64,000 nucleotides of DNA, from assembly GCF_000526515.1 (NCBI RefSeq), contig NZ_JAGF01000001.1, forward strand, positions 2,480,001 through 2,544,000, read 5' to 3'. The notes beneath the pieces are model-generated. The model did no database searches. It was given only the letters and a program-made list of their open reading frames with translations, and was not told the origin of the DNA. This DNA comes from Cellulomonas sp. KRMCY2. Lineage in GTDB: Bacteria; Actinomycetota; Actinomycetes; Actinomycetales; Cellulomonadaceae. Positions 33,272 through 48,847 of the stretch are shown in pieces. The translations under genes and the position numbers were made by a program. Each line of letters begins with the position of its first letter. Position 1 is the first letter of the stretch.

Positions 33272-35224
33272 ATGGACGTCAAGCCGTTGGGTCGTGCGCG
33301 TTCCGCGGCCGGCCGCGTGCCGTTCCTCGTGCGGTGGGTCCTGGCGGTGACACTGAGCGTCGTCAGCGCCGGCCTGATCGAGTACGCGGTCGCCTCGGGC
33401 CAGGTGGAGCAGCGGACCCTGGAAGCGGCGATCGGGACCTATGAGGCTGAGATCGTCGGCCTCGAGGCGGTCCTTGCCGCAGATCTGGCGCCGGACGCTC
33501 GGCGGGCAGCGGTGGCGGCGCAGCTGGAGCACATCGCGGTGACCAACGGGACCGAGTACGTCGGCCTGTTCGACGCGGACGGACGACCCGTCGGTGTCGT
33601 AGGGACCGGCACGAACACCGTCGACGCGGAGCGGCTCGACGCCGTCCTCCTGTCCGGAGAGCCGTCGGCCGACTCCGAACGTGACGTGGGCGAAGCCGGG
33701 CAGTCGGAGCGGTACGAGTTCCTGCTGCCGGTGCGCTCACCGGACGGGATGCTGGTCATCGAGATCGATCAGCGGGCCGAGATCATCGGCAACGTGCTGG
33801 CCGACCTACGGGTGAGCCAGGTCTATGGGCTGCTGCTCGGGCTGGTGCTCGCCATCCCGCTCTCCTACCTGTTCGGGGGACGTACGCTGCACCGGCAGCA
33901 TCGTCGGGCGCAGCGGACGGCGAACACCGATGCGTTGACCGGGATCGCTGCACGACGCCCGTTCCGTCCCGCGCTGGAGGCCGCGCTCGCGGACCACACC
34001 GCCACGAACGTCGTGCTGGGTCTGATCGACATCGACGACTTCAAGCAGGTCAACGATCGGCTGGGCCACACCTACGGCGACCGGGTCCTGTGTGCGTTGG
34101 CGGACTCCTTCGACACGTTGCGCGCGTCCGACACCCCCTTCCGGCTGGGTGGTGACGAGTTCGCCGTCCTGCTCGTCAACAGCACCGACGTGCAGGCCGA
34201 CGAGGCGCTCGAGCGGGTCCGTCGCTCGTTGACGGAACGGGCGCCCGGCATCACGTTCAGCGCCGGCATCGCGTCGGCCCGGCCGCACGACGAGGTCGCC
34301 GCTCAGGAGCTGTGGGAGCGCGCGGACGCCGCGCTGTACGACGCCAAGGCCCGCGGCCGCCGCCAGACCGTGACCTTCGACTCGATGTCCACCGGGCTGA
34401 CGGTCAGCGCGGAGAAGCTCGACGCGATGTCCTCCCTCCTCACCGACGACGGCGGACTGACCGTCGCGTTCCAGCCCATCTGGGACCTTCGCCGAGGTCA
34501 GATCATCGGCCACGAGGCCCTCCTTCGGCTTCCCGCGGGCGTACCGATCGACGGCCCGCAGGAGGCCTTCGAGCTGGCCCGACGCCTGGGTCTTGCCGCC
34601 GAGCTCGACGAGTGCGCCCGCCGGACGGTCCTGGCGAGCGTCCGTGCACGGCACTGGGACGGGCTGCTGTTCGTCAACGTCCATCCCGACGCGCTGCCTC
34701 GGCTCGATGTCGAGGCGCTCGTCGCCGAGGCAGCGTCGGCCGGCCTCGCTCCGAGAGACGTCATCCTCGAGGTCACCGAGCACACCGGCCTCGATCTGCC
34801 CGAGCCCATCGGGGTGCTCAGGCGGGCACACGCCCTTGGCTTCCGGCTGGCCCTGGACGACATGGGCCGGGGCAACGCGGGCCTCCGCGCCCTGACGCAC
34901 GTCCGCTTCGACGTGGTCAAGATCGACCGCCACGTGATCGCCCGACTCGGTCTCGACCCGGCCTCCGACGCGACAGTTGCCGCGGCGACGACGTTCGTCC
35001 AGCAGACGGGCGGCTGGGTCGTGGCCGAAGGCATCGAGGACGCGGACATGCTCGGCGCGGTCCTCGGCATCGGCCGTGGACCGTCCGCGGTCGCCGGGAT
35101 CGCCGGGCAAGGGTCCTTCCTCGGCCGCCCCGCCGCTGCCCCGACGGCGATCACCACTCACCTTGACGTCCTGCCCGCCCCAGAGCGTCCGTCGCCGCCG
35201 GCCGCGCCGCCGCTCGGCACCTGA
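33272..35224 (+). CDS. Dual GGDEF-EAL c-di-GMP signalling protein
   Basis: A 650-residue protein. Two TM segments (about 16-38 and 184-204) flank an extracellular sensor of about 145 residues with a PAS/Cache-like YVGLFDADGRPVGVV. The GGDEF domain (about 212-370) has intact GGDEF at 293-297 and an inhibitory-site RASD at 284-287, exactly five residues upstream. The EAL domain (about 385-620) has EAL at 415-417, EVTEHT, LALDDMGRG, VVKIDRHV and VAEGIED. Both cyclase and phosphodiesterase residues look intact. ATG 33272 follows GAGGGGG; it lies 186 nt after ptsI. Confidence 0.9.
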   Translation: MDVKPLGRARSAAGRVPFLVRWVLAVTLSVVSAGLIEYAVASGQVEQRTLEAAIGTYEAEIVGLEAVLAADLAPDARRAAVAAQLEHIAVTNGTEYVGLFDADGRPVGVVGTGTNTVDAERLDAVLLSGEPSADSERDVGEAGQSERYEFLLPVRSPDGMLVIEIDQRAEIIGNVLADLRVSQVYGLLLGLVLAIPLSYLFGGRTLHRQHRRAQRTANTDALTGIAARRPFRPALEAALADHTATNVVLGLIDIDDFKQVNDRLGHTYGDRVLCALADSFDTLRASDTPFRLGGDEFAVLLVNSTDVQADEALERVRRSLTERAPGITFSAGIASARPHDEVAAQELWERADAALYDAKARGRRQTVTFDSMSTGLTVSAEKLDAMSSLLTDDGGLTVAFQPIWDLRRGQIIGHEALLRLPAGVPIDGPQEAFELARRLGLAAELDECARRTVLASVRARHWDGLLFVNVHPDALPRLDVEALVAEAASAGLAPRDVILEVTEHTGLDLPEPIGVLRRAHALGFRLALDDMGRGNAGLRALTHVRFDVVKIDRHVIARLGLDPASDATVAAATTFVQQTGGWVVAEGIEDADMLGAVLGIGRGPSAVAGIAGQGSFLGRPAAAPTAITTHLDVLPAPERPSPPAAPPLGT

Positions 35225-35292
35225 GGGTGTGGGGGAGTGCGATGTGCCAAACTCGGTTGTCGCGCGAGGATCTGGCTAGCCGTGGAGGGTTG

Positions 35293-36210
35293 ATGGTTCG
35301 GGAGCCGAACACGTTGCCGCTCCTTGAACGGCTCACGAACCACAGCGAACGGCTGCGTCCCTCGGAGCTCAAGGTCGCCAGGGCCGTGCTCGCTGATCCG
35401 GCTGCGGCCGTGCGGGTGAACATGGCAGCCCTGGCCGCCAGCGCCGGGGTCAGCGAGCCGACGGTCATGCGCTTCTGCAACGGCCTCGGTTTCGACGGCT
35501 TCCAGTCGTTCCGCTTCGCACTCGCCGAAGCCCTCGCCATCGGCATCCCGGTCACCCACTCGGCCATCAGCGTCGACGACTCCGTCGCCGAGATGGCGAC
35601 GAAGATCTTCGACCACACCCTGAGCAGTCTCGACCGCGCCCGCCGTGGACTCGACACGACAGCCGTGACGACAGCGGTCGACGTCCTGCTCGAAGCGAGC
35701 CGGGTGGTCCTCGTGGGCCTCGGCGCCTCGGGCATCATCGCTCAGGATGCGCTGCAGCAGGCCGTGCTCCTGGGCGTGCCGTGCGCCGCCCCGATCGACC
35801 TGCACCAGCAGTTCATGGCCGCCTCGATGATGGAGCCCGGCAGCGTCCTCGTCGCGATCTCGAACACGGGCCGGTCGCGATCGATCCTCGAGATCACGGT
35901 GGAGGCGAAGCGCAACGGAGCCACGATCATCGGCGTGGTCGGTGGTCCGAGCCCGCTCCTCGACCTCGCCGACGTCGGTATCGTGCTCCGGACGTTCGAG
36001 GACACCAACACCTACACGCCCACCGTGAGCCGACTCGCCGGCCTGGTCCTGGTCGATGTGCTTGCGACCGCGGTGGCCGTCCGCCGTGGACCGGGTCACC
36101 TGGAGCGGCTGCGGGAGATGAAGGCGGCGCTCTCCGAGTTCCGGGGGAGCTTCGAACCGGGGAGCCCGGACGGCGACCCGCATCCGTCGGCCGGCCCTGG
36201 CGTCGGCTGA
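35293..36210 (+). CDS. RpiR/MurR-family regulator (first of two paralogues)
   Basis: A 305-residue regulator. The N-terminal RpiR HTH (about 1-77: LRPSELKVARAVLADPAAAV, AASAGVSEPTVMRFCNGLGF) precedes a SIS sugar-phosphate-binding domain (about 115-260: VVLVGLGASGIIAQDALQQA, VLVAISNTGRSRSILEI). ATG 35293 has GGAG about 5 nt upstream; a start at 35227 is possible. It is very similar to the RpiR protein at 40610. It is convergent with the phosphotriesterase-like gene and is a candidate reader of the GTAGT-N3-ACTAC operators. The effector is probably a sugar phosphate. Confidence 0.92.
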   Translation: MVREPNTLPLLERLTNHSERLRPSELKVARAVLADPAAAVRVNMAALAASAGVSEPTVMRFCNGLGFDGFQSFRFALAEALAIGIPVTHSAISVDDSVAEMATKIFDHTLSSLDRARRGLDTTAVTTAVDVLLEASRVVLVGLGASGIIAQDALQQAVLLGVPCAAPIDLHQQFMAASMMEPGSVLVAISNTGRSRSILEITVEAKRNGATIIGVVGGPSPLLDLADVGIVLRTFEDTNTYTPTVSRLAGLVLVDVLATAVAVRRGPGHLERLREMKAALSEFRGSFEPGSPDGDPHPSAGPGVG

Positions 36211-36246: not shown

Positions 36247-37224
36247 TCAGCGCAGGGTCAGCAGGCGTGCGGGGTTGTCGACCAGCAGCTGTTCGGCCAG
36301 GTGCCCGCCGACGCGCCGGCGCAGGCGGGGCACGAAGCGCAGCGGCAGGTACGTCAGCCCCGGCATGCCCCCGTAGGAGTGGTACCGATGACGTCGTGCG
36401 ACGTCGCCGCCGAGCAGGACACGGCCCGGGTCTCCGGTGGCGAGCACCCGCTCGAGGCAGTCGAGGATGGCGGAGTCGGGAGCCTCGCGGTGGCGCGCCA
36501 TGCCGTCGTAGCCGAGGTAGGCACCCGCGAGGGTGAGCTCGGCATGCAGGCCGGGATCCAGGTTGCGGTCGACGTGCGCGAGCACGACCCGTTCGGCGGG
36601 CAGCCCCTCCGCTGCCAGGACGTCCAGCACCTCCCAGGTCGCCGAGCCGTGCTCGAGGTGCACCATGACACTGACGCCGGTCTCGCCGGCGGCAGCCGCG
36701 ACGGCGGCGAGCACCCGACGCTCGAAGGGGTCGATCCGCCAGTATCCGATACCGGCCTTGAGCAGGCCTGCCCGCACGGGTTCACCGGACGGGCCACGGG
36801 CAGTCGGACCGCGATCGGGGACGTCCTCGTCGGGCAAGCCGTCGCGGATGTCGCGCGTGAAGCGGTCTGCCAGGTCCGTGACCCCCTCCGCCAAGAGCCA
36901 GTGGCCCGCGGCGTAGTGCTCGGAGCGATGGGCGCCGCTCACGTGGACGACGGCGAGCCCCGTCGCCTCGCTGATCCGGGCGACCCCGGCGGGGTCACGG
37001 CCCAGGCCCGTCGGGGTGGCCTCGACCATGGTGGTGATGTCCGCGGCTCTGAGCTCGGCCGCCTCCCGGCGACTGGAGTCCTCGTCGTCGAGCTCGTCGC
37101 CGGCGAGGAGCGGGGACGTCTGGAAGAGGTGGTCGTGGTAGTCGCAGCGACCGAGCTCGCTCGCCGGTCGGTCGCCGAGCACCGTGCGGACGAGGCCGTG
37201 GTCGTGCGCTGTGCTGGACGACAT
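36247..37224 (-). CDS. Phosphotriesterase-family (PTE-like) metal-dependent hydrolase, probable lactonase
   Basis: A 325-residue amidohydrolase-fold protein of the PTE/Php family. The first metal ligands are H30 and H32 in YHDHLF. A Lys lies in LLKAGIGYW, then VMVHLEHGS, VLAHVDRN and LLGGDVAR supply the remaining His and Asp ligands in the right order. Members hydrolyse lactones, including sugar lactones, and phosphoesters. It is divergent from the catabolic operon and has its own copy of the RpiR-type operator (37292-37304), so a sugar-acid lactonase role in that pathway is likely. Confidence 0.82.
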   Translation of the reverse strand: MSSSTAHDHGLVRTVLGDRPASELGRCDYHDHLFQTSPLLAGDELDDEDSSRREAAELRAADITTMVEATPTGLGRDPAGVARISEATGLAVVHVSGAHRSEHYAAGHWLLAEGVTDLADRFTRDIRDGLPDEDVPDRGPTARGPSGEPVRAGLLKAGIGYWRIDPFERRVLAAVAAAAGETGVSVMVHLEHGSATWEVLDVLAAEGLPAERVVLAHVDRNLDPGLHAELTLAGAYLGYDGMARHREAPDSAILDCLERVLATGDPGRVLLGGDVARRHRYHSYGGMPGLTYLPLRFVPRLRRRVGGHLAEQLLVDNPARLLTLR

Positions 37225-37291: not shown

Positions 37292-37304
37292 GTAGTACCA
37301 CTAC
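37292..37304. promoter_or_regulatory. Operator copy 1: GTAGTACCACTAC
   Basis: A perfect 5+5 inverted repeat with a 3-nt spacer, 68 nt upstream of the PTE-like start. Two further copies lie at 37377 and 48834. The pattern resembles the TGTARTwwwAYTACA class bound by HexR, itself an RpiR-family protein. The two RpiR genes bracket the locus. Confidence 0.75.
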
Positions 37305-37354: not shown

Positions 37355-37389
37355 TTGCGCGGGGTGCGGGCAGTCAGTAGTCTCACTAC
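37355..37389 (+). promoter_or_regulatory. Promoter plus operator copy 2 of the sugar-catabolic operon
   Basis: TTGCGC (37355-37360), a 17-nt spacer and TAGTCT (37378-37383) form a plausible promoter. The operator GTAGTCTCACTAC (37377-37389) overlaps the -10 element completely, so a bound RpiR protein would block polymerase. It lies 29 nt before the cupin gene start. Confidence 0.72.
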
Positions 37390-37418: not shown

Positions 37419-38066
37419 ATGCCGGCGATGCCAGAGCCGACGCCCATGGACCTGGACGCTCCGGACGTCCTCATGCAGCCCGGGCTGCTGACGATCGGTG
37501 CCGACGGTGCCATGGCGGGCCGGACCGGCGCGTACGACAAGGTCCTGGGAGACCTGGTCGGCGTGTACGCCGACGGGGACGCGTTCGAGGCAGCCGTGCG
37601 GTCGCAGGGCGCGGATCGTCTCGTCTACCACGTCGACGAGCACCGCGGGGCCGACGGCGCCGGTGCGCTGATCATCGGGACCAGCACCGTGCTGCCCGGC
37701 CGGATCGGTGACGAGTTCGCCGTGACGCGCGGCCACCTGCACGCCAAGGCCGACCGCGCCGAGCTCTACCACTGCCTCAGCGGCCGTGGCGTGATGCTCC
37801 TCGAGACGCTCTCCGGGGAGAGCAAGGCCATCCCGCTCTCCGCCGGGGAGGCCGTGCACGTCCCCGGGCACTGGATCCACCGGAGCGTCAACGTCGGCAG
37901 CGAGCCGTTCGTCACCCTGTTCTGCTACGCGGCGGACAGTGGCCAGGACTACGGGCTGATCGCCGACGCGGGCGGGATGGCCCAGCTGGTCGTCACCGAC
38001 GGGGCCGGCGGCTGGACCACGCGGCCGAACCCCCAGCACGTCGGCTACCGGGCGACGCGCGGATGA
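37419..38066 (+). CDS. Cupin-type glucose-6-phosphate isomerase family protein
   Basis: A 215-residue cupin resembling archaeal phosphoglucose isomerase (GPI, cupin class). Metal ligands H106, H108, E115 and H154 have exactly the spacing of that family (TRGHLHAKADRAELYHCL, then VPGHWIHRSVNVG). A YAADSGQDYGLI tail is also family-like. It would interconvert an aldose 6-phosphate and a ketose 6-phosphate, or a related sugar. It is the first gene of the operon and overlaps the aldolase gene (ATGA). A second, non-glucose substrate is quite possible in this setting. Confidence 0.8.
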   Translation: MPAMPEPTPMDLDAPDVLMQPGLLTIGADGAMAGRTGAYDKVLGDLVGVYADGDAFEAAVRSQGADRLVYHVDEHRGADGAGALIIGTSTVLPGRIGDEFAVTRGHLHAKADRAELYHCLSGRGVMLLETLSGESKAIPLSAGEAVHVPGHWIHRSVNVGSEPFVTLFCYAADSGQDYGLIADAGGMAQLVVTDGAGGWTTRPNPQHVGYRATRG

Positions 38067-38725
38067 ACGCCCAGGACCTTCTCGCGGCCGTCGAGCGGCA
38101 CGGTGTGGTGCCCGTCGTCGAGATCGACGACGTGGCAGACGCGGTTCCGCTGGCCCGCACGCTCGTCGAGGCGGGGCTGCCGGTCATCGAGGTGACCCTG
38201 CGCACGTCGTCGGCGCTCGAGTCGGTCGCCCGGATCGCCGCGGAGGTGCCGGAGTGCCTGCTGGGCGCCGGGACCTTGCTGACCGCCGCCATGGTGGCCG
38301 CCGCGGTGGACGCCGGTGCCCAGTTCGGCGTGTCGCCGGGCGTCTCGGCCGCGCTGCTGACCGCGGCCGCAGAGCGGGACCTGCCGTTCATCCCCGGGGC
38401 GGTGACCCCGAGCGAGATCATCGTGATACTCGACGCCGGGATCCGCCACGTGAAGTTCTTCCCGGCCGGCGCCTACGGCGGTGTCCCGACCCTCAAGGCC
38501 CTCGCCGGGCCGTTCGCCGCGACCGGGGTGCGCTTCATGCCCACCGGCGGGGCGACCGCCGCGAACGTCGGCGACTACCTCGCGCTGTCCAGCGTCTTCG
38601 CCGTCGGAGGGACGTGGGTCGCACCCCGTGCCGACGTCGCGGCCCGGCGCTGGGACGACATCGGGGCGAGGGCTCGCGCCATCGTGACGGCGTGCAGCGC
38701 ACGGGCCGAGGCGGTGACCCGGTGA
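38063..38725 (+). CDS. eda: KDPG/KHG-type 2-dehydro-3-deoxy aldolase
   Basis: A 220-residue class I aldolase. Catalytic E43 and R47 lie in VIEVTLRT, and Schiff-base K131 in RHVKFFPAGAYGG; FMPTGGAT and VFAVGGTWV complete the TIM barrel. It cleaves a 2-keto-3-deoxy-(phospho)sugar acid into pyruvate and an aldehyde. It overlaps both neighbours by 4 nt. Because no matching dehydratase is seen in the operon, the precise substrate (KDPG, KDPGal or another keto-deoxy acid) is open. Confidence 0.92.
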   Translation: MNAQDLLAAVERHGVVPVVEIDDVADAVPLARTLVEAGLPVIEVTLRTSSALESVARIAAEVPECLLGAGTLLTAAMVAAAVDAGAQFGVSPGVSAALLTAAAERDLPFIPGAVTPSEIIVILDAGIRHVKFFPAGAYGGVPTLKALAGPFAATGVRFMPTGGATAANVGDYLALSSVFAVGGTWVAPRADVAARRWDDIGARARAIVTACSARAEAVTR

Positions 38726-39687
38726 CCGTTGCCACCGGCACCACCGACCCCCTGCCGGCGGCAGCGGACGTGCCGACGATCTACTTCATCGGTGTCACCA
38801 CGGGGAAGTCCTCGATCCGCACGGTGTTCCCGCGATGGGCCACGGAGCTCGGCCTCGGCGACGTGCGGCTGGTCGGCATCGACCTGCCGCTGCATGCGCC
38901 GGCCGAGGACTACCGCCGCGTCGTGGACTTCATCGCCCACGACCCGTTGAGCCGCGGCGCACTCGTGACCACGCACAAGATCGACCTCTACGACGCGTGC
39001 CGGGACATGTTCGACGTGATCGACCCGCACGCTGAGCTCATGGGGGAGACGAGCTGCCTGTCGAAGCGCGACGGCCGGCTCGTGTGCCACGCCAAGGACC
39101 CGATCTCCTCGGGCCTGGCCATCGACGCGTTCCTGCCGCCGGGCCACTGGCAGCGCACGGGCGCCGACGCGTTCGTCATGGGTGCGGGCGGGTCGGCGAT
39201 CGCCATCAGCTGGTACCTCTCGCGTCCCGAGCGCGGTGCGGATCGCCCCGCGCGCATCGTCGTGGCGAACCGCAGCACGCCACGTCTGGAGGCCTTGCGC
39301 CGGGTGCACGACGAGCTGGGCACCGACGTCCCGGTCGAGGTCGTGCACACTCCGACGCCGCAGGCCAGTGATGCCATCCTCGCGACGCTGGCGCCGGGCT
39401 CGCTGGTCGTGAACGCGACGGGCCTCGGCAAGGACGCCCCGGGGTCGCCGCTCACGGATGCGGCGGCCTTCCCGCTGGACGCCGTGGCCTGGGACCTCAA
39501 CTACCGGGGTGACCTGGTGTTCCTGGACCAGGCGCGCGCCGCGGGGCACGTGCAGGTGGAGGACGGCTGGGTCTACTTCCTGCACGGCTGGACGCAGGTC
39601 GTCGCCGAGGTGTTCGACCTCGAGATCCCGACCTCGGGGCCGGTCTTCGACGCGCTGGACCGGATCGCCACGGACACCCGGCGATGA
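38722..39687 (+). CDS. Shikimate-dehydrogenase-like protein
   Basis: A 321-residue protein with the shikimate dehydrogenase layout. The N-terminal substrate domain has the catalytic-type Lys86 in VTTHKIDLYDAC, and the Rossmann domain opens with VMGAGGSAIAIS, followed by VVANRSTPR and LVVNATGLGKD. It is about 40 residues longer than AroE, and its opening YFIGVTTGKSS replaces the usual SxS shikimate clamp. In a sugar operon it probably oxidises a different polyol or keto acid. GTG 38722 overlaps the aldolase stop. Confidence 0.8.
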   Translation: MTVATGTTDPLPAAADVPTIYFIGVTTGKSSIRTVFPRWATELGLGDVRLVGIDLPLHAPAEDYRRVVDFIAHDPLSRGALVTTHKIDLYDACRDMFDVIDPHAELMGETSCLSKRDGRLVCHAKDPISSGLAIDAFLPPGHWQRTGADAFVMGAGGSAIAISWYLSRPERGADRPARIVVANRSTPRLEALRRVHDELGTDVPVEVVHTPTPQASDAILATLAPGSLVVNATGLGKDAPGSPLTDAAAFPLDAVAWDLNYRGDLVFLDQARAAGHVQVEDGWVYFLHGWTQVVAEVFDLEIPTSGPVFDALDRIATDTRR

Positions 39688-40613
39688 CGGCCGGCAGGGT
39701 GCTCGTGACGCCGCGGTCGCTCACCGAGGCGGGTCTGGAGACCGTCCCCGAGCTCGCCCCCGTCCGCGAGCGCGGGTACGAGCTCGTCGGCGCGCCCCCC
39801 GGCCGGATGCCCACCGAGGACCAGCTGCTCGAGGTCGTACCCGGCTGCGTCGGCTGGTTGGCCGGTGTGGAGCGGATCAGCGAGCGGGTGCTCGGCAGCG
39901 CCACCGGTCTGCGGGTGATCAGCCGCAACGGGTCCGGGACCGACGCGATCGACATGGCGGCCGCCGCCCGCGCCGGCGTCCGGGTCGAGCGGGCCGTCGG
40001 CTCCAACGCCCAGGGCGTGGCCGAGCTCGCCCTCGCGCTCAGCCTGAGCGCCCTGCGCAGCGTGCCGTGGAGCGCCGCGGCCCTCGTCGCCGGCCGGTGG
40101 GAGCGGACGCCGGGTGCGGAGCTCCCGGACTGCACTGTCGGCATCGTCGGCCTCGGCGCCATCGGGCGGCGGACGGCACAGGCCTTCTCGGCGCTGGGCT
40201 CCCGGGTGGTCGGCTTCGACCCGTTCGTCGCCGCCACCGACGTGCCCCTGATGGACCTCGACGACCTTCTCGAGGTGTGCGACGTCATCAGCCTGCACTG
40301 CCCACCGGCGGCGGACGGCGCACCGATGATCGACGCCGCCAGGCTCTCGCACGTGGCCAGGGGCGCCGTCCTGGTGAACACGGCGCGGTCGGCGCTCGTG
40401 GACGACGACGCCGTGCTCGCGGCGCTCGAGGCCGGCACGCTGGGCGCGTACGCCGTCGACGCGTTCGACGTGGAGCCGCCGGAGATCACGGCGCTGCTGC
40501 GCCACCCCCGGGTGATCTCGACGCCGCACCTGGGCGGCTACACGCACGCGAGCATCCGGCGGTCCACGACCCAGGCCGTCGAGAACCTCATCCACGCCCT
40601 CGACCAGGGATGA
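39684..40613 (+). CDS. D-isomer-specific 2-hydroxyacid dehydrogenase
   Basis: A 309-residue SerA-type dehydrogenase. NAD motif VGIVGLGAIGRRTAQAF lies at 152-168. The catalytic triad is R235 (VNTARSALVD), E264 (DVEPPE) and H282 (TPHLGGYTH), all in place. It oxidises or reduces a 2-hydroxy/2-keto acid with NAD(H). No ACT regulatory domain is present, so it is not a serine-pathway SerA. It overlaps both neighbouring genes by 4 nt and likely works on an acid intermediate of the same pathway. Confidence 0.9.
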   Translation: MTAGRVLVTPRSLTEAGLETVPELAPVRERGYELVGAPPGRMPTEDQLLEVVPGCVGWLAGVERISERVLGSATGLRVISRNGSGTDAIDMAAAARAGVRVERAVGSNAQGVAELALALSLSALRSVPWSAAALVAGRWERTPGAELPDCTVGIVGLGAIGRRTAQAFSALGSRVVGFDPFVAATDVPLMDLDDLLEVCDVISLHCPPAADGAPMIDAARLSHVARGAVLVNTARSALVDDDAVLAALEAGTLGAYAVDAFDVEPPEITALLRHPRVISTPHLGGYTHASIRRSTTQAVENLIHALDQG

Positions 40614-41542
40614 GGCCGGCGATGGTGGCGGCAGCACCCCTGGCGCTGATGGAGCGGCTGAGCACCATCGAGGGCCGCCTTCGGCCGTCGGAGCGCAAGG
40701 TCGCCGAGCTCGTCCTGAGGGACCCGGCCGCGACGATGGGCATGGGTATGGCCGGCCTCGCCGCGACCGTGGGGGTGAGCGAGCCGACAGTCATGCGGTT
40801 CTGCAACGCGCTGGGCTTCGACGGGTTCCAGACGTTCAAGTTCGCCCTCGCCCAGGCGCTCGCGATCGGCATCCCGGTCACGCACTCGGCGATCCAGCTC
40901 GACGACACGGTCGAGGCCATGGCGATGAAGATCTTCGATCACACGGTGAGCAGCCTGGACCGGGCGCGCCGCGCGCTCGACACCCGCGCGGTGGCCTCGG
41001 CCGTGGACGTCCTCCTCGACGCCCGCGACCTCCTGTTCGTGGGCCTGGGCGCATCCGGGATCATCGCGCAGGACGCCCTGCAGCAGGCCGTGCTGTTCGG
41101 CGTGCCGTGCGCCGCGCCCATCGACCTGCACCAGCAGTTCATGACGGCCTCGATGAGCGGGCCCGGTACCGTGATCGTGGCCATCTCCAACACGGGCCGC
41201 TCGACCTCCGTCCTGGACATCGCCGCCCAGGGCAAGCACCGAGGAGCAACGCTGATCGGGATCGCCGGTGGTCCCAGCCCGCTGATCGACCACGCCGACG
41301 TCGGCCTGATCCTGCGCACGTTCGAGGACACCGACGTCTACACGCCCACCGTGAGCCGCCTGGCCGGGCTCGTCCTGATCGACGTGCTCGCGACGGCCGT
41401 CGCCGTCCAGCGCGGTCGCGACCACCTCGAACGGCTCGGCGAGATGAAGCAGGCGTTGTCCTCGTTCCGCGGCAGCGCCGCACGAGATCGGCGCCGCACG
41501 AGATCGGCGGCGCGCGACGGCCACGGGAGCGGCCGACCATGA
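40610..41542 (+). CDS. RpiR/MurR-family regulator (second paralogue)
   Basis: A 310-residue RpiR protein inside the operon. The HTH (about 1-80: LAATVGVSEPTVMRFCNALG) and SIS domain (LLFVGLGASGIIAQDALQQA, VIVAISNTGRSTSVLDI) are almost the same as in the protein at 35293, including VPCAAPIDLHQQFM. The two clearly arose by duplication. Its Arg-rich C-terminus is encoded by a 16-bp tandem duplication (41477-41508). Autoregulation through the 37377 operator is likely. It overlaps neighbours on both sides. Confidence 0.92.
   Translation: MRPAMVAAAPLALMERLSTIEGRLRPSERKVAELVLRDPAATMGMGMAGLAATVGVSEPTVMRFCNALGFDGFQTFKFALAQALAIGIPVTHSAIQLDDTVEAMAMKIFDHTVSSLDRARRALDTRAVASAVDVLLDARDLLFVGLGASGIIAQDALQQAVLFGVPCAAPIDLHQQFMTASMSGPGTVIVAISNTGRSTSVLDIAAQGKHRGATLIGIAGGPSPLIDHADVGLILRTFEDTDVYTPTVSRLAGLVLIDVLATAVAVQRGRDHLERLGEMKQALSSFRGSAARDRRRTRSAARDGHGSGRP
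41477..41508 (+). repeat. 16-bp tandem duplication inside the RpiR C-terminus
   Basis: GCCGCACGAGATCGGC occurs twice head to tail. Because 16 is not a multiple of 3, gain or loss of a copy changes the last residues and the stop position of the RpiR gene, and its coupling to the FGGY kinase start. Confidence 0.85.
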
Positions 41543-43080
41543 ACGCGGAAGCGGTGCTCGGCATCGATCTCGGGACCAGCGTGGTCAAGGCCGGCATCTA
41601 CGGCTTCGACGGCGCGATGCACGCGAGCGCGAGCTGCCCGCTGACGTTGAGCCACTCGGGGCCGGGCCGGGCCGAGCAGGACCTGGACGACTTCTACGAG
41701 GCCGCGGCCGCTGCGAGCCGGGTGTGCCTCGCCGGGGGGTACGCCCCCGAGCGGATCGGGGCGGTCGCGATGGTCGGTCAGATGGCGGGGGTCGGCATCG
41801 TCGACAAGGATCACCGGCCGCTCGCCGCCTTCGACTCGTGGCTCGACACCCGCTGCGGCGACGTCGCCGACGAGCTCTCGCGCACCCTCGGCGATCGGAT
41901 CACCGCGACGGCCGGGTGCGCCCCGACGATCAGCATCGGACCGAAGATGCTCTGGTGGCGTCGCCATCGCCCCGACGTCTGCCGCGACGCGGCGTCGTTC
42001 GTCACGGCAGCCGGGTACGTGGCCGGCCGGGCCACGGCGACGGTGGGCCGGTCCGCCTTCATCGACCCCTCGTACCTGCACTTCACCTCCGTCGCCGACG
42101 TGGGACGCGCCGCGTGGGACGAGGCGCTGGTGGACGCCGTCGGCGTCGATCCGGATCTCCTGCCCCGGATCGTCGAGAGCGCCGAGATCGTCGGCACCCT
42201 GACCGACCGGGCTGCGGCGGACTTCGGTCTGCGGCCTGGTGTGCCGGTGGCGGCCGGCTGCGGTGACACGGCCGCGAGTGCGCTCGGGGCGGGCGCCGCG
42301 CGGGCCGGTCAGGCGTTCGACATCGCCGGCACCGCCGCGGTCTTCGGCGTCTGTCTGCCGGTGTTCGCACCGGACGCGTCGGACGGGACGCTCATGACGA
42401 TGCGGGCGGCCCTGCCCGGCCGGTGGTACTCGCTCGCCTACGTGGGTGGTGCGGGGCAGGTCGTGGAGTGGGTGTGTCGCGAGGTGCTCGGACACGCGTC
42501 CGTCGACCCCGACGCGTACGCCGACCTCGCGGCCGCGGCGTCGAGCGTGCCGCCCGGCAGCGACGGCGTGATGGTCTCCCCGCACTTCTCGGGGCGCGTG
42601 GCCCCGGTGTCGCCCAGCATGCGCGGCTCGATCGTCGGGCTGTCGGCCGTGACCGGCCGCGCGCACCTGGCCAGGGCGGCGCTCGAGGCGATCGCCTTCG
42701 AGTACCGGCGCTACGCCGACATCGCCCGCGGCGCAGCACCGGATGTCGCGGTCACGGAGATCATCGGTACGGGTGGCGGCAGCCGGCTCGACGTGTGGAA
42801 CCAGATCAAGGCGGACGTCCTCGCGACGCCGTACCGGCCTGTCGTGGGCGCCGAGTCGGGAACCCGGGGCGCCGCGATGGTCGCGATGGCCGCGATCGGG
42901 CAGGAGCTGCCCGAGCTCGAGCCGTCCGCGTACGGACCGGTCGCGCGCCCCGATCCCGCCACGACGGCCGCCTACGCGGCCGCCACCGAGAGCTACCAGC
43001 GGTGGTCGGCGCGATGGGCCGCCGGCTACCGCAGCGAGTCAGCACTGACCGAGCACCACGGAACGGGAGACACCATCTGA
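41539..43080 (+). CDS. FGGY-family carbohydrate kinase, xylulokinase-like
   Basis: A 513-residue FGGY kinase. N-terminal phosphate motif VLGIDLGTSVVKAGIY (residues 6-21), catalytic Asp in AAGCGDTAASALGAG, and C-terminal IGTGGGSRLDVWNQIKADVL match xylulokinase/gluconate-type kinases. It should phosphorylate a ketose, polyol or sugar acid produced by the neighbouring dehydrogenases and isomerase, ahead of the Eda-type aldolase. It overlaps the RpiR stop by 4 nt and the next gene by 1 nt. Confidence 0.9.
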   Translation: MNAEAVLGIDLGTSVVKAGIYGFDGAMHASASCPLTLSHSGPGRAEQDLDDFYEAAAAASRVCLAGGYAPERIGAVAMVGQMAGVGIVDKDHRPLAAFDSWLDTRCGDVADELSRTLGDRITATAGCAPTISIGPKMLWWRRHRPDVCRDAASFVTAAGYVAGRATATVGRSAFIDPSYLHFTSVADVGRAAWDEALVDAVGVDPDLLPRIVESAEIVGTLTDRAAADFGLRPGVPVAAGCGDTAASALGAGAARAGQAFDIAGTAAVFGVCLPVFAPDASDGTLMTMRAALPGRWYSLAYVGGAGQVVEWVCREVLGHASVDPDAYADLAAAASSVPPGSDGVMVSPHFSGRVAPVSPSMRGSIVGLSAVTGRAHLARAALEAIAFEYRRYADIARGAAPDVAVTEIIGTGGGSRLDVWNQIKADVLATPYRPVVGAESGTRGAAMVAMAAIGQELPELEPSAYGPVARPDPATTAAYAAATESYQRWSARWAAGYRSESALTEHHGTGDTI

Positions 43081-44150
43081 TGGCGACGAAGCGGCTGTGC
43101 ATGGTCGGTGCGGGACGCGTCGGTCGGCTCCACACCCGGAGCATCACCGAGCACGTCGGGCACCGAGCCGAGGTGACGGCGATCTGCGACCCGAGCCGCG
43201 AGATCGCCGCCGAGCTGGCCGCCGACTACGGCGTCGGCCTGGTGTGCGCCACCCTGGCGGAGGCGCTCGAGCGCGGGACCTACGACGGGGTCGTGATCAC
43301 GACCCCGACCTTCACCCACCACCCGCTCGCGCTGACGGCGATCCGCGCCGGCCTGCACGTGCACCTCGAGAAGCCGATGGCGATGAACCTCGTCGAGTGC
43401 GCGGAGATCAGCGGGGCCGCCGAAGCCGCCGGGATCGCGCTGCAGCTCGGCTTCATGCGTCGCTTCGACAGCGACTTCGTCGCAGGCGCCGAGCTGCTCC
43501 GCAGCGGGGAGATCGGCGACCCGATGATCATCAAGTCCCTCACCCACGGACCGGGCCTGCCGCCGGCGTGGGCCAACGACATCCGGACCTCCAACGGCAT
43601 GATCGCGGAGGTCAACAGCCACGACCTCGACACGATCAGCTGGTACGCCGGATCCGAGCCGGTGGACATCCACACCCGGGTCGCCAACTTCAAGGGCGCC
43701 CAGCGGGGCGTCGTCACGGAGCACTTCTACGACACGTTGGTCGCGACAGTGACCTTCGAGTCGGGGGCCATCGCCACCGTGGCCGGGGTCTGTCCCGCCG
43801 ACTACGGCTACGACGCGCGGGTCGAGGTGACCTGCACGGCGGGCATGGTGCAGGTGGGTCACACCGGGCCCGGCGGGCCGGCGAGCATCGTCGCCGGCAC
43901 GGCGCTGCGGGGCGAGGCGGTGTACCGCTCGTGGCGCGACCGGTTCGCCGACGCCTACGTGCGGGAGATGGTGGCCTTCGTCGACGCGATGGATGGCGCC
44001 CCCCTGCGGGTCGGCGCCGCCGACGGCACCCGAGCCGTCGGCCTGGTCCTCGCCGGGACGCTCTCGATGCTCGAGGGCCGGACCGTGACGGTCGCCGAGG
44101 TGCAGGCGGCGGGATTCGTCCCCGCCTGGCAGACGCGGACGGGGCAGTGA
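43080..44150 (+). CDS. Gfo/Idh/MocA-family oxidoreductase
   Basis: A 356-residue NAD(P)-dependent sugar or inositol dehydrogenase. Cofactor motif VGAGRVGRLH (residues 9-18), the EKP motif at 97-99 (VHLEKPMAMN) with catalytic Lys98, and the EVNSHDLDTISWY segment giving the second catalytic pair are intact; it looks most like myo-/scyllo-inositol dehydrogenases. Start and previous stop share one base (TGATG). It may introduce the keto group that starts the pathway. Confidence 0.9.
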   Translation: MATKRLCMVGAGRVGRLHTRSITEHVGHRAEVTAICDPSREIAAELAADYGVGLVCATLAEALERGTYDGVVITTPTFTHHPLALTAIRAGLHVHLEKPMAMNLVECAEISGAAEAAGIALQLGFMRRFDSDFVAGAELLRSGEIGDPMIIKSLTHGPGLPPAWANDIRTSNGMIAEVNSHDLDTISWYAGSEPVDIHTRVANFKGAQRGVVTEHFYDTLVATVTFESGAIATVAGVCPADYGYDARVEVTCTAGMVQVGHTGPGGPASIVAGTALRGEAVYRSWRDRFADAYVREMVAFVDAMDGAPLRVGAADGTRAVGLVLAGTLSMLEGRTVTVAEVQAAGFVPAWQTRTGQ

Positions 44151-44152
44151 CC

Positions 44153-45220
44153 ATGCGCGCCGTGGTGTACCGGGGCCCGCGCGACCTCGTCGTGGCCGAC
44201 GTCGACGTCCGGCCCCTGGGTCCCGGGGACGTGCGCGTCGCCGTGGACAGCGCGGGGGTGTGCGGCACCGACGTCCGGATCTTCAAGGGCGAGCACTCCG
44301 GGTTCGCGAACGGGACGGGACGCGTGCCCGGCCACGAGGTGGTCGGCCGAGTGAGCGAGGTGGGCCCGGGTGCGGCCCCGCCCGGCCTTGCCGTCGGCGA
44401 CGTGGTCTTCGTCGCTCCCAACATCGGCTGCGGCGTGTGTGCCCAGTGCCGACGGGGGAACGAGAACCTGTGCCCGACGACCGAGGCGATAGGCATCTCG
44501 CTGGACGGGGGCTTCGCCCAGAGCGTCCTGGTCCCCGCCCGCGCCGTCGCGCGCGGGAACCTCATCCCGCTCGGTGCGGTGTCGTCGGACGCCGGGGTCC
44601 TCATCGAACCGCTCGCCTGCGTGCTCCGGGGCCAGGACAAGGTCGACGTCCACGAGGGTGACACGGTCCTCGTCGCGGGCGCGGGGCCGGTCGGGCTCCT
44701 GCACGTGGCGCTCGCGCGCACCAGGGGGGCCGCGCTGGTGATCTGCTCCGAGCCGTCGGCCGTCCGGCGCGAGGCGGCCCAGCGCGCCGGGGCCGCGGTC
44801 GTCGTCGACCCGACCGCGGCCGACCCGTACGAGAGCGTCGCCGCGGCGACCGGGGGTCTCGGCGCCGACGTCGTCATCACCGCCGCTCCGGTGCACGCCC
44901 TCCAGTCCGCGGCGCTGCACCTCGCCGCGACCGGCGGGCGGGTGCTGTACTTCGGTGGTCTGCCCAGGAGCCGGCCAACCGTCGAGCTCGACACCAACCT
45001 CATCCACTACAAGGAGCTGCTCGTCGCAGGCACGACGGCATCCACGCTCGACGACTGCCGCCGGGCGGCCGAGCTGGTCGGCGGGGGCCGGCTCGAGCTC
45101 GACTGGATGGTCTCGGACCGCTACGCCCTCGAGGACTTCGCGGCGGCCGTCGGTCGCGCCCAGGACCCGGCTGCGCTCAAGGTCGTCGTCAAGCCCTCGC
45201 TCTCACGGAAGGCACTGTGA
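44153..45220 (+). CDS. Zinc-dependent alcohol dehydrogenase (MDR family)
   Basis: A 355-residue medium-chain dehydrogenase. Catalytic-zinc ligands C37 (GVCGTD) and H61-E62 (PGHEV), structural-zinc Cys C93, C96, C99 and C107, and the cofactor motif VLVAGAGPVGLLHVAL are all present. It resembles sorbitol/threonine/galactitol dehydrogenases. It likely oxidises a sugar or polyol in this operon. ATG 44153 is 2 nt after the preceding stop; a GTG two codons earlier is possible. Confidence 0.92.
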   Translation: MRAVVYRGPRDLVVADVDVRPLGPGDVRVAVDSAGVCGTDVRIFKGEHSGFANGTGRVPGHEVVGRVSEVGPGAAPPGLAVGDVVFVAPNIGCGVCAQCRRGNENLCPTTEAIGISLDGGFAQSVLVPARAVARGNLIPLGAVSSDAGVLIEPLACVLRGQDKVDVHEGDTVLVAGAGPVGLLHVALARTRGAALVICSEPSAVRREAAQRAGAAVVVDPTAADPYESVAAATGGLGADVVITAAPVHALQSAALHLAATGGRVLYFGGLPRSRPTVELDTNLIHYKELLVAGTTASTLDDCRRAAELVGGGRLELDWMVSDRYALEDFAAAVGRAQDPAALKVVVKPSLSRKAL

Positions 45221-46551
45221 TCATGAAGCCGGGTCTGCTGCCCGTCCACCTCGAAGACGTCCCGAGCGAGACGTTCGTCCGCCAGCTCGGCAAGCTCAAG
45301 GAGCTGACGAGCGAGCTCGTCGACTGGCTCGAGCCCGCGCACATCGACCGCCCGGTCCCCGCCGGGACGAGTGCTGTCGTCGTGCCGGACCTCAGTGGTC
45401 TGGCGTACCGCATGGTCGACTCGTTCCGCCGGATCGATGTGCCGATCCTGCTCCTGTCGACCGAGTTCGGCAGCGTCCTGATGTGGGACTGGGAGATCCG
45501 CGACCACCTGCGCCGCAAGGGCGTCGCCACGATCGCACCGACCTCCCTGACCGAGTGCGAGGACGTCTGCCGCACGCTCGCCACCCAGAAGACCCTCCGG
45601 CACTCCTCGATGCTCGCCTACCAGGACGACCTCGGTGCCGGCATGCAGCCGGACATCTTCAAGCGGTTCTACTGGTGGGAGGACGAGTGCGTCCTCGACC
45701 TGCAGAAGGCCTTCGGGGTACGCGTCGAGCGGCGCAGCTTCCACGACCTCGCCGCGCGTGCGGCCGCCGTGCCGGACGCCCGGGTCGAGGCCGCCTGGGA
45801 CCGCCTGTCGGCCCGCACGCCCATCGTCGGCCTGGCCCCCAGAGGCAGGGCGGACGCCCTGCGGCTGTACGTCGCGCTCGGCGACGAGCTCGACGAGACC
45901 GGCGACGTCATCGCGGCCGGCATCAACTGCCTGAACGAGTCGACGACGTCTCCCACGACGCCGTGCCTGGCCTGGAACCTGCTCTTCGAGGAGCGCGGCC
46001 TGATGTGGGGCTGCGAGGCCGACCTGACCTCGATGATCACCAAGACGCTGGTGCACAAGTCGCTCAAGGCCCCGGTCATGATGACCAACCTGTACCCCTA
46101 TCTGATGGGCCAGGCCGCGCTCGCGCACGAGCGCATCCCGTTCTTCCCCCCGGTCGACGAGGAGCCCGAGAACCACGTCCTCGTGGCGCACTGCGGCTTC
46201 CTCGGCGTCGTGCCGCAGTCCTTCGCCACCGAGTGGACCTTGCGGCCGCGCGTGCTGGAGATCGTCGACCCGAGCGCCAACGTGATCGACGCGCGGCTCG
46301 CCGAGGGTGCGACCACGATCGTCAAGATCGCCGGCGACATGAAGACGCTGGTGGTCGCCCCGTCCGTCCTGACGGGCTACCACCAGTTCACGAACTCGGA
46401 CTGTCTCAACGGGGCGGTGCTCCGCGTCGAGGACGGCTACCGCTTCGTCGAGAACCTGCCGTCCCATCACGCGATCCTCGCCACGGGTGACCTGGTGCGT
46501 CGCCTCGAGGTGATGTCGAGCGTGCTCGGGCTGGACGTGCTGAAGATCTGA
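45217..46551 (+). CDS. L-fucose/L-arabinose isomerase-family protein (FucI-like)
   Basis: A 444-residue protein with the general layout of the FucI/AraA-like fold: an N-terminal sugar-binding Rossmann part (AVVVPDLSGLAYRMV, PILLLSTEFGSVLMWDWE), a central domain with AGINCLNESTTSPTTPCLAW and GLMWGCEADLTSMITKTL, and a C-terminal barrel with VLVAHCGFLGVVPQSF. Metal-binding Glu/Asp/His residues are plausible in GCEADLTSM and AHCGF. It probably interconverts an aldose and a ketose. It overlaps the dehydrogenase gene by GTGA; ATG 45223 is an alternative start. Confidence 0.72.
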   Translation: MIMKPGLLPVHLEDVPSETFVRQLGKLKELTSELVDWLEPAHIDRPVPAGTSAVVVPDLSGLAYRMVDSFRRIDVPILLLSTEFGSVLMWDWEIRDHLRRKGVATIAPTSLTECEDVCRTLATQKTLRHSSMLAYQDDLGAGMQPDIFKRFYWWEDECVLDLQKAFGVRVERRSFHDLAARAAAVPDARVEAAWDRLSARTPIVGLAPRGRADALRLYVALGDELDETGDVIAAGINCLNESTTSPTTPCLAWNLLFEERGLMWGCEADLTSMITKTLVHKSLKAPVMMTNLYPYLMGQAALAHERIPFFPPVDEEPENHVLVAHCGFLGVVPQSFATEWTLRPRVLEIVDPSANVIDARLAEGATTIVKIAGDMKTLVVAPSVLTGYHQFTNSDCLNGAVLRVEDGYRFVENLPSHHAILATGDLVRRLEVMSSVLGLDVLKI

Positions 46552-46670
46552 CGGCGAGGTGCGCGGAGGTCCGGTGCTGCGGGCGGCGGGCCCCCGGGCG
46601 GGCACCGGTGATGCGGGTCGGAGGTGCCGTCCCGGTGCAGGGTGCACCGGCAGGAGCGGGAGGGAAACAG

Positions 46671-47513
46671 GTGTCGGAGAGCCAGCAGGAGCGCGGTCGG
46701 GTCGTGGAGCTCTTCGACGGGACGACGCTCGACGGGTGGCACGCGGTGCCGCGGCTGCCCGTCGCCGCCTGGCCCGGGGGACCGGCGCCGGACCCCGGTT
46801 CTGCCGAGTACCTGGCGGCGGCGAGCAGCGTCGGCGGGTGGTCGGTCCAGGACGGTGCCATCGTGGGGACCCAGAGCCCCGCCGGCTCGGGTCTCGGTGG
46901 CTACCTGCTCACGGATGACCGGTACGACGACTTCCGGCTGACGTACGAGGTGCGACCCGACTGGCCTGCGGACACGGGCGTGCTCGTACGGGCCAGCGAC
47001 CTGGGCGCCCAGGGGTTCCAGGTGCTGATCGACCACCGCAGGTCGGGGGGGATCGGCGGCTTCTACGGCAACGGCATCGGCGGCTTCCACGCCCTCGCCT
47101 ACGGCGTGGACGTCGCACGGGACGAGTCCGGCCGGCCCGTCGGCCTCGTCGAGGACGACCCGGCCACCACGCTCGAACCCGTCACGGCCGCGAAGCGGGC
47201 CCTGCTCTCGTACGCGGCACCGGCCGAGGAGTTCTTCCGGGCGTGGCGATGGGGCGACTGGAACGAGATGTCCGTCCGCTGCGTCGGCGCGTACCCCGTG
47301 CTGACGAGCTCGGTCAACGGGGTCACGATCTACGAGGTCGACACCGGTGCGATCTCGCACCCGACCTATGACCGAGCGGCCGTCGCGGCACTGCTCGGCA
47401 GGAGCGGGCACATCGCGCTCGAGGTCCACGACAACGACGAGCCGATGGGCGCGGACCGCTGGGCGCCCGACGCGGCAGTCCGGTGGCGCAATCTCAGGAT
47501 CGAGACCCTGTAG
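46671..47513 (+). CDS. DUF1080 / 3-keto-disaccharide hydrolase family protein
   Basis: A 280-residue jelly-roll (concanavalin-like) protein. The family opening ELFDGTTLDGWH, WSVQDGAIVGTQSP, DFRLTYEVRPDWPADTGVLV and the closing VRWRNLRIETL are characteristic of DUF1080, a family now tied to hydrolysis of 3-keto-glycosides. No signal peptide is seen, so it should be cytosolic. GTG 46671 has GGGAGGG 7 nt upstream. It follows the FucI-like gene after a 119-nt gap and precedes a Gfo/Idh/MocA gene, the usual partner that makes the 3-keto group. Confidence 0.82.
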   Translation: MSESQQERGRVVELFDGTTLDGWHAVPRLPVAAWPGGPAPDPGSAEYLAAASSVGGWSVQDGAIVGTQSPAGSGLGGYLLTDDRYDDFRLTYEVRPDWPADTGVLVRASDLGAQGFQVLIDHRRSGGIGGFYGNGIGGFHALAYGVDVARDESGRPVGLVEDDPATTLEPVTAAKRALLSYAAPAEEFFRAWRWGDWNEMSVRCVGAYPVLTSSVNGVTIYEVDTGAISHPTYDRAAVAALLGRSGHIALEVHDNDEPMGADRWAPDAAVRWRNLRIETL

Positions 47514-47613
47514 GCGACGCCGCGGATGAACCTCCGCCGCTCCGGACGGGCCGGCAGCCGTCGGGAGCGGGGGCAGATCGAGCAATGACGACGACGACAG
47601 GGAGAGACCGACA

Positions 47614-48738
47614 GTGACGAGTGCAGTGGGCAGTGCTGGGAACGACATCGGCGGCGCCGGGGGACCGGCCCGGTACGCGGTGGTGGGCAACGGCTGGCGG
47701 GCGGGGTTCTACCTACGGCTCGCGAGGACCTTCCCCGAGCGGCTGCAGGTGACGTCCGTCGTGACCCCGAAGGCCGAGACGGGCCTGGCGGCCGAGCGGC
47801 AGTGGGGCCTGCCGTCCGTGCGCACCATCAGGGATGCGATCACTGGCGACCGGCCTGACTTCGTGGTCGCCGCGGTGCCGTGGTCGGCGACGCCGCGGGT
47901 GATCAGGGAGGCCGTGGCCGCCGACGTCCCCGTCCTGAGCGAGACGCCCCCGGCCGCCGACGTCCCGGGCCTGCTGGAGCTGTGGTCCCAGGTCGGCGGA
48001 TCGGGACTCGTCCAGGTCGCCGAGCAGTACCCGCTGTACCCGGGGCACGCGGCCCGGATCCAGCTCATCAAGAACGGGCTCCTCGGCACGGTCAGCAACG
48101 TCCAGGTCTCCTCGACGCACCAGTACCACGCGATCGCGCTGATGCGCGCGATGCTCGGCGTGGGCTTCGAGAACGCCGCCGTGACGGCGCACCGCAGCGA
48201 GTTCCCGCTCGTCAGCCCCATCGGCCGGGACAGCTGGACCAAGGACCTCACGCCGCTGCCGGCGTGGAACCTCCTGTCCCACCTCGACTTCGGTGCCGGT
48301 CGGACCGGGCTGTACGACTTCACCGACAACCAGTGGCACAACGAGCTCCGCAGCAACCGCATCCTCGTCCGCGGCAGCCTCGGCGAGCTGGTGACCGATC
48401 ACGTCGTGCACGTGCGGGACGAGCTCACCGTGCTGGAGTCCGACCTCGTGCGTCGCCAGCTGGGCGTCGACATGAACTTCGAGGGCTTCGACCTGGACCA
48501 CATCACGTTCGAGGGCGACGTCGTGTACCGCAACGCCTGGCAGGGCGGCCGGCTCGCCGACGACGAGATCGCCGTCGCGTCCGTGCTCGAGCGGATGGGC
48601 GCCTGGGTCCGCGGCGAGGGCCCGGCGCCCTACCCCCTCGCGGAGGGGTGCCAGGACCACATGCTCGCCCTGGCGATGGACGAGTCGCTCGCCGTCGGGG
48701 CCACCGTGCGCACCACGCGTCAGCCCTGGGCCTCCTGA
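47614..48738 (+). CDS. Gfo/Idh/MocA-family protein lacking the EKP lysine
   Basis: A 374-residue member of the oxidoreductase family with a weak cofactor loop (YAVVGNGWRAGFYLRL, residues 21-36). Where relatives have EKP, it reads E110-T111-P112, so the catalytic Lys is absent. The C-terminal domain is complete (WNLLSHLDFGAGRTGLYDFTD, then FEGFDLDHITFEGDVVYRN). It may be a non-redox lyase, hydrolase or isomerase on a keto-sugar, or a structural partner. GTG start after AGGGAGAG; it lies 100 nt after the DUF1080 gene. Confidence 0.8.
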   Translation: MTSAVGSAGNDIGGAGGPARYAVVGNGWRAGFYLRLARTFPERLQVTSVVTPKAETGLAAERQWGLPSVRTIRDAITGDRPDFVVAAVPWSATPRVIREAVAADVPVLSETPPAADVPGLLELWSQVGGSGLVQVAEQYPLYPGHAARIQLIKNGLLGTVSNVQVSSTHQYHAIALMRAMLGVGFENAAVTAHRSEFPLVSPIGRDSWTKDLTPLPAWNLLSHLDFGAGRTGLYDFTDNQWHNELRSNRILVRGSLGELVTDHVVHVRDELTVLESDLVRRQLGVDMNFEGFDLDHITFEGDVVYRNAWQGGRLADDEIAVASVLERMGAWVRGEGPAPYPLAEGCQDHMLALAMDESLAVGATVRTTRQPWAS

Positions 48739-48810: not shown

Positions 48811-48847
48811 TTGACGGTGGCGGACATCGGTATGTAGTGTCACTACA
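48811..48847 (+). promoter_or_regulatory. Promoter plus operator copy 3
   Basis: TTGACG (48811-48816), an 18-nt spacer and TAGTGT (48835-48840). The full 15-bp palindrome TGTAGTGTCACTACA covers 48833-48847. The -10 sits inside the operator in the same geometry as at 37377, which argues for one regulator controlling both transcripts. It drives the VOC-to-GH1 gene group. Confidence 0.75.

Follow-up and report, generated by a model that had tools for sequence, protein, structure and literature searches.

A sugar catabolic operon of Cellulomonas sp. KRMCY2 with a candidate lactone-forming, Entner-Doudoroff-like core

A nine-gene operon of Cellulomonas sp. KRMCY2 appears to be a sugar catabolic operon, and there is a fair chance that its pathway has not been described. 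The operon lies on the plus strand at positions 37419–46551 of a 64,000-nucleotide stretch of contig NZ_JAGF01000001.1, hereafter the window. Our preferred reading, of which we are slightly less than half convinced, is that the locus forms a regulon for the breakdown of an unusual C5 or C6 polyol or ketose, with a phosphorylative core predicted to form a lactone in an Entner-Doudoroff-like manner. This core, composed of an FGGY kinase, a cupin, an AroE-like protein, a hydrolase of the phosphotriesterase (PTE) or metallo-beta-lactamase (MBL) type, a 2-hydroxyacid dehydrogenase (HADH), often an aldolase of the 2-keto-3-deoxy-6-phosphogluconate (KDPG) type, and a HexR-like regulator, is found in several phyla.

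Results

Gene content of the operon

All nine genes are intact, within the boundaries given by an earlier reading made from the letters alone (hereafter the sequence-only reading), and Pfam backs the names of seven of them. They overlap at each of the eight junctions, by 4 bp at seven and by 1 bp at one. The fixed module claimed in that reading is supported. The first genes encode a cupin of the phosphoglucose isomerase type (37419–38066; Pfam GPI, E 1.4e-36), a KDPG-type aldolase (38063–38725; NCBIfam TIGR01182, 229.4 bits against a cut-off of 156.05), a putative AroE-like dehydrogenase (38722–39687), a D-2-hydroxyacid dehydrogenase, the HADH of the core (39684–40613; Pfam 2-Hacid_dh_C, E 2.3e-44), and a HexR-like RpiR regulator (40610–41542). 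Then follow the FGGY kinase (41539–43080; Pfam FGGY_N and FGGY_C; best NCBIfam model XylB, 258.6 against a cut-off of 380.25), an IolG-like Gfo/Idh/MocA dehydrogenase (Gfo; 43080–44150; TIGR04380, 229.2 against 355; PDB matches include inositol dehydrogenases), a zinc alcohol dehydrogenase (ADH; 44147–45220) resembling IolM and Tdh (NF041097, 186 against 450; tdh, 185 against 458), and a protein with a predicted L-arabinose/L-fucose isomerase fold (FucI-like; 45217–46551).

The nine genes had nevertheless been taken as too small a unit: the divergent hydrolase, the HexR-like regulator with its putative operator and the alphaproteobacterial plasmid version of the cluster had been missed. The hydrolase, a proposed lactonase of the PTE family (36247–37224, minus strand; Pfam PTE, E 8.9e-35; best PDB match 3pnz, 143 bits), begins at a distance of 195 bases from the operon, with transcription pointing away from it. 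It travels with the operon, as relatives occur in matching clusters of other actinobacterial loci, with 59% identity in L010 and 57–76% in L011, L013, L018–L020, L022 and L023. Residues H30, H32, K156, H189, H217 and D274, which we take to be the binuclear metal site of the family, are conserved in at least 95% of 21 rows. The nearest named model, phospho-furanose lactonase NF045706, gives 100.7 against a cut-off of 630.

A conserved core with exchangeable front ends

The comparison covers 78 loci, 55 selected by the FucI-like protein and 23 by the AroE-like protein. A FucI-like profile scan of genome contigs yielded 54 loci, chiefly in Actinomycetota and Chloroflexota and also in spirochaetes, Atribacteria, Verrucomicrobiota and others. 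A tblastn search of plasmids with the AroE-like protein yielded 18 records, and among the matches listed 12 have 60–80% identity; eight plasmid records were examined, one of them unannotated, and a Listeria record among the matches was left out. On plasmids of Sinorhizobium, Marinovum, Pararhizobium, Lichenicola and Rhizobium, the order is cupin, aldolase, AroE-like, HADH, MBL hydrolase and RpiR. One plasmid cluster is without the aldolase, another has a cupin that is unannotated yet found by tblastn, and a Shinella plasmid carries the core genes in a different order.

Most plasmid clusters have an FGGY kinase, dehydrogenases of other families and a ribose-type ABC transporter nearby, and the FucI-like protein has no match in plasmids. 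L124, from a further genome belonging to the window's order, holds the core with a short-chain dehydrogenase/reductase (SDR), and matches to Gfo, ADH and FucI-like are absent there. Hence, the core is common and the front end is swapped, and Gfo and ADH, being replaced in the plasmid clusters and in L124, do not belong to the core. The order of the core, a gene order that the sequence-only reading had proposed to look for in other actinobacteria, is shared by actinobacteria and alphaproteobacteria.

The AroE-like protein is present in 51 of the 78 loci, together with the cupin in 42, FGGY in 39, HADH in 38, FucI-like in 28 and the aldolase in 25. Twelve genomes were drawn from the 27 FucI-like loci without AroE-like; in ten of them the protein is encoded elsewhere (weakest E 1.7e-78). 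Among 296 genomes of the window's class, it is found in 10 at E 1e-70 or better and in 21 at E 0.001; the two samples differ in taxonomy.

The AroE-like protein

This protein gives 38.7 with TIGR00507 (cut-off 200.2) and has no match in Pfam. It looks like a dehydrogenase: K86 and D126, presumably the catalytic positions of shikimate dehydrogenases, are conserved in at least 95% of 37 rows, and the NRS motif is present. A role as the missing dehydratase, suggested in the sequence-only reading, was rejected because these dehydrogenase residues and the motif are retained. A housekeeping role was also rejected, because the genome has one true AroE elsewhere; this bears out the view that an aromatic pathway makes little sense at this locus. 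The identity gap between AroE-like proteins (at least 55%) and AroE (about 30%) is clean among the matches listed, 20 of 43 plasmid records, whereas the sample of 296 genomes contains a middle group at 39–47%. The alignment to true AroE misplaced the N-terminus, and substrate residues were compared by eye. A sugar enzyme of the AroE family, 5-ketofructose reductase (PDB 7cok), is a weak match (E 6.2e-4), no nearer than ordinary shikimate dehydrogenases (1nvt, E 9.1e-5).

Exchange of two hydrolases

In the 51 loci with the AroE-like protein, PTE is found in 21, MBL in 10, either one in 31 and both in none. This exchange argues for a single hydrolysis step. UlaG, an enzyme of the MBL fold, is a sugar-phosphate lactonase.

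The FucI-like protein

No sequence family was found for the FucI-like protein in Pfam or NCBIfam searches. Its model has the arabinose/fucose isomerase fold over the full length, with 14–17% identity to arabinose isomerases. The second acidic metal ligand expected of AraA and FucI, which we take to be E333 and D361, respectively (the choice of metal-binding residues is likewise our assumption), is replaced by N291, invariant in 50 rows. In an hhalign comparison with the FucI-type L076 (E 3.4e-5, probability 72; one alignment, dependent on L076), N291 pairs with an aspartate, while E267, H325 and the 417–418 histidine pair land on matching residues; the alignment to AraA alone is too weak to place N291. 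The fold is shared with L-arabinose and L-fucose isomerases, the difference being N291 in place of the aspartate of L076, which makes it uncertain that the protein acts as a simple aldose-ketose isomerase. At L042 (7748–11329) and similar loci of Chloroflexota and spirochaetes, the FucI-like gene often adjoins those of an AP_endonuc_2 protein and a Gfo protein resembling levoglucosan dehydrogenase (404 against 650 bits in L042).

Regulator and palindrome

A 13-bp palindrome, GTAGTNNNACTAC, has exact copies at 37292, 37377 and 48834, with no others in the 4,495,232-base genome. Two are located between the PTE gene and the operon (GTAGTACCACTAC, 37292–37304, and GTAGTCTCACTAC, 37377–37389, 29 bases ahead of the cupin gene) and one ahead of the VOC, aldo/keto reductase and GH1 genes at 48.8 kb (GTAGTGTCACTAC, 48834–48846); all three are proposed operators. 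The reversed pattern, used as a control, has 8 matches per strand of the genome, so the copy number is ordinary and it is the clustering that stands out. A looser pattern, GTARTNNNAYTAC, gives 23 sites in 16 of the 78 loci (1,296,444 bases), 22 of them outside mapped genes, whereas shuffles (n=20) gave 0.6 on average and 2 at most. A site is positioned 16–66 bases ahead of the cupin gene in five annotated alphaproteobacterial plasmid clusters; in S. meliloti L079, both sites precede other genes of the region. A pSymA cluster of S. meliloti without AroE-like (L085) also has the palindrome (8804–8816) ahead of its cupin gene, and holds a sugar kinase, a zinc dehydrogenase and a ribose-type ABC transporter.

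The best NCBIfam model of the operon regulator is HexR (247.3 against a cut-off of 296; 283.6 for the L079 relative). A HexR site would be a palindrome with a 3-base spacer near the genes that it controls, and GTAGTNNNACTAC is a candidate for such a site. The HexR-like regulator may bind it, which would make the palindrome its operator. The effector of HexR is KDPG. In gammaproteobacteria, zwf-pgl is reported to be under HexR control together with edd and eda (PMC5343134). A second RpiR-family copy (35227–36210, plus strand; Pfam HTH_6 and SIS), 74.6% identical over 279 amino acids to the operon regulator, flanks the start of the system with it, in what looks like a recent duplication.

The aldolase and the absent dehydratase

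E43 and K131 of the aldolase, noted as intact from the sequence alone, are indeed conserved in at least 95% of 23 rows. So are H106, H108, E115 and H154 of the cupin (at least 95% of 42 rows) and R235, E264 and H282 of HADH (at least 95% of 36 rows), residues whose roles are those known for the respective families. HADH is nearest to phosphoglycerate dehydrogenases and glyoxylate reductases. That no dehydratase adjoins the aldolase had also been remarked, and the wider comparison agrees: nine queries from the IlvD/Edd, MR_MLE and DHDPS families matched in 3 of the 78 loci, one strongly, UxaA, UxuA and other families not having been searched. The IlvD/Edd queries account for one locus, in Marinovum, where the protein is itself a query and belongs to a different operon, one that also encodes a TRAP transporter; the other two matches are weak.

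Elsewhere in the genome there are three ILVD_EDD-family genes; the one that was scanned, on part of its length, scores 492 bits with IlvD and 150 of 708 with Edd. The genome encodes two further Eda paralogues, whose distances to MR_MLE matches are about 120 bases and 2.5 kb; the nearer one (contig 1, 1717982–1719306) shows the usual pairing that is absent at the window's aldolase.

Discussion

Proposed pathway

From the observed gene content, conservation, residues, hydrolase exchange and palindrome distribution, we infer the reactions, their order, the type of substrate, the effector and the pairing of regulator and palindrome. In this organism, Gfo, ADH and the isomerase-fold protein, and perhaps glycoside cleavage, would feed the core. 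The FGGY kinase would phosphorylate a ketose and the cupin would convert the ketose phosphate to an aldose phosphate. The AroE-like protein, probably NADP-linked, would then oxidise the ring form to a lactone phosphate, like glucose-6-phosphate dehydrogenase, and PTE (an MBL-fold enzyme in alphaproteobacteria) would open it to the acid phosphate. HADH would produce the 2-keto acid phosphate, and the KDPG-family aldolase would cleave it, placing kinase and aldolase in one linear path. The HexR-like regulator may sense a KDPG-like intermediate and act at GTAGTNNNACTAC.

As for chain length, C5 is favoured by XylB being the best kinase model and by the nearest named PTE relative being a pentose-type lactonase (the substrates of phospho-furanose lactonases are presumably of the pentose type); C6 is favoured by the KDPG aldolase, the HexR-like regulator and the binding protein of the plasmid clusters. 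The latter matches PDB 4ry9 (393 bits), whose ligand we take to be D-talitol, not a deoxy compound. For the case of a hexitol feed, alditol dehydrogenases convert D-altritol (= D-talitol) to D-psicose and D-tagatose in vitro (PMC12193009). Tetrose substrates were discounted on theoretical grounds, as a 1,4-lactone requires a free 4-OH. Chloroflexota and spirochaete binding proteins matched many sugar-binding proteins and were dropped as a guide to the substrate.

Several points weigh against this pathway. The absence of a linked dehydratase leaves its final step unexplained, as the scheme does not say from where the aldolase would obtain a 2-keto-3-deoxy acid. The XylB, IolG, IolM, HexR and PTE-lactonase models all stay under their cut-offs, HexR for the L079 relative as well. 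The core is inconstant: cupin, HADH and aldolase were undetected in L125–L128 and L132, and neither PTE nor MBL is present in 20 of the 51 AroE-bearing loci, several of which end inside the module. The exchange of the two hydrolases may merely reflect taxonomy. The palindrome is carried by 16 of the 78 loci, and no GTARTNNNAYTAC site was found in the Chloroflexota loci, where GntR and ROK regulators are common. Finally, the loci were selected by two of the proteins concerned, and many end early.

Alternative explanations

The least improbable alternative, though still unlikely, retains an ordinary non-deoxy substrate: HADH would form or reduce a 2-keto-aldonate phosphate, and either the aldolase would release hydroxypyruvate or a dehydratase encoded elsewhere would complete the path. 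The relationship of HADH to phosphoglycerate dehydrogenases and glyoxylate reductases fits this idea, as do the three ILVD_EDD-family genes elsewhere in the genome; the one scanned resembles IlvD far more than Edd, however, and we know of no KDPG-type aldolase that releases hydroxypyruvate.

The boldest answer to the question of the aldolase substrate, a shade less probable, is a 3-deoxy hexose, hexitol or ketose. Kinase, cupin, AroE-like protein and lactonase would lead to a 3-deoxy-aldonate 6-phosphate, from which HADH would yield KDPG directly. Every core enzyme would then be used in a linear path, and both the missing dehydratase and the HexR-like regulator would be accounted for. However, no result indicates a deoxy substrate, and the presumed ligand of 4ry9 is a non-deoxy hexitol.

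Equally doubtful is a cyclitol pathway resembling the Thermotoga inositol route, with Gfo and ADH as IolG- and IolM-like inositol dehydrogenases, PTE opening the ring ketone and the other enzymes handling the open-chain acid. IolG and IolM are the best NCBIfam models of these two proteins and several PDB matches of Gfo are inositol dehydrogenases, but both scores are far under cut-off, and SDRs or other dehydrogenases replace the pair in the plasmid clusters and L124. The least credible alternative, separate sugar functions sharing a regulator and a location, would suit the wide front-end variation and the occasional absence of core members, but sits badly with the same order in actinobacteria and alphaproteobacteria and with the AroE-like protein encoded elsewhere in 10 of the 12 genomes tested.

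Neighbouring genes

The genes described here between 46608 and 55231 are on the plus strand. A 3-keto-disaccharide hydrolase domain protein (46608–47513; Pfam PF06439, 73.9 bits) starts 56 bases past the operon and is followed by a Gfo/Idh/MocA protein (47626–48738; PF01408, 35.3 bits), a 51% relative of which adjoins FucI-like in L019. Both are putative members of the system, and the stretch 46608–48738 suggests glycoside 3-oxidation chemistry next to the operon.

Behind the third palindrome site are a VOC-family protein (48924–49697; start chosen, the alternative at 48837 placing the palindrome at the gene start), an aldo/keto reductase (49762–50652; Pfam Aldo_ket_red on a longer frame) and a GH1 beta-glucosidase (50767–52158; TIGR03356, 575.8 bits against 478.5). 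The next three are also putative members: a Gfo/Idh/MocA protein weakly resembling levoglucosan dehydrogenase (52229–53386; NF052479, 158 against 650) and two AP_endonuc_2 proteins (53436–54182 and 54203–55231; PF01261, 43.8 and 132.5 bits). AP_endonuc_2 proteins with weak IolE matches could be dehydratases. Relatives of some of these genes, from VOC to AP_endonuc_2, lie near the FucI-like gene in L011, L016, L017, L019 and L023.

Upstream (30365–35224) are PTS EIIB and enzyme-I-type domains and a GGDEF-EAL protein. Downstream (55257–63432) the carbohydrate locus continues with a PD40 beta-propeller protein, another Gfo protein and an SBP_bac_1-type ABC transporter.

Significance and comparison with known systems

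Returning to the lactone-forming pathway, we tentatively extend it, with less confidence than the catabolic role at this locus, to an undescribed phosphorylative pathway of Actinomycetota, Pseudomonadota, Chloroflexota, spirochaetes and other phyla. An AroE-fold protein would play the part of glucose-6-phosphate dehydrogenase and PTE or MBL that of 6-phosphogluconolactonase, HADH would make the aldolase substrate without a dehydratase, a HexR-like regulator would control the regulon, and a new family with the arabinose isomerase fold and a changed metal site would feed one branch. The literature searched, which left most subscription papers outside, holds no description of the gene set, in agreement with the earlier statement that no standard pathway is known to have exactly these steps. 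The sequence-only reading thus stands in part: its fixed module, its aldolase without a dehydratase, and the FGGY kinase and isomerase-type proteins of the module hold, while the dehydratase role of the AroE-like protein does not.

If true, this would represent an analogue of the upper Entner-Doudoroff pathway assembled from unrelated folds. A role would be assigned to a subfamily that several plasmid records label shikimate dehydrogenase, to an isomerase-fold family for which neither Pfam nor NCBIfam has a model and to a pair of interchangeable hydrolase types, and the record labels shikimate dehydrogenase, phosphoglycerate dehydrogenase and glucose-6-phosphate isomerase would be misleading at these loci. 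The common palindrome offers a direct handle, as the inducer of the regulon would identify the substrate.

The Thermotoga inositol pathway includes IolG, IolM and others (PMC5931981). The operon's Gfo and zinc ADH are nearest to these two models, under their cut-offs. That pathway presumably has no AroE-like protein, cupin, FGGY kinase or HADH. The Agrobacterium D-altritol and galactitol pathways, which Wichelecki reportedly described in 2015, are said to combine a hexitol dehydrogenase with a ketose kinase and to end in ketose phosphate epimerisation; the SDRs, FGGY kinase and ribose-type binding protein of the plasmid clusters recall them, although we assume that route to be without AroE-like protein, lactonase and HADH. 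The Entner-Doudoroff pathway under HexR (zwf, pgl, edd, eda) likewise comprises an isomerase, a dehydrogenase, a lactonase-type hydrolase, a KDPG-type aldolase and a regulator of the HexR kind. Of its features, the KDPG-type aldolase is present in the operon (229.4, above 156.05) and Edd is not in the set. Unlike that pathway, the operon has a dehydrogenase and a lactonase-type hydrolase of other folds and HADH in the place of the dehydratase, with a ketose kinase added.

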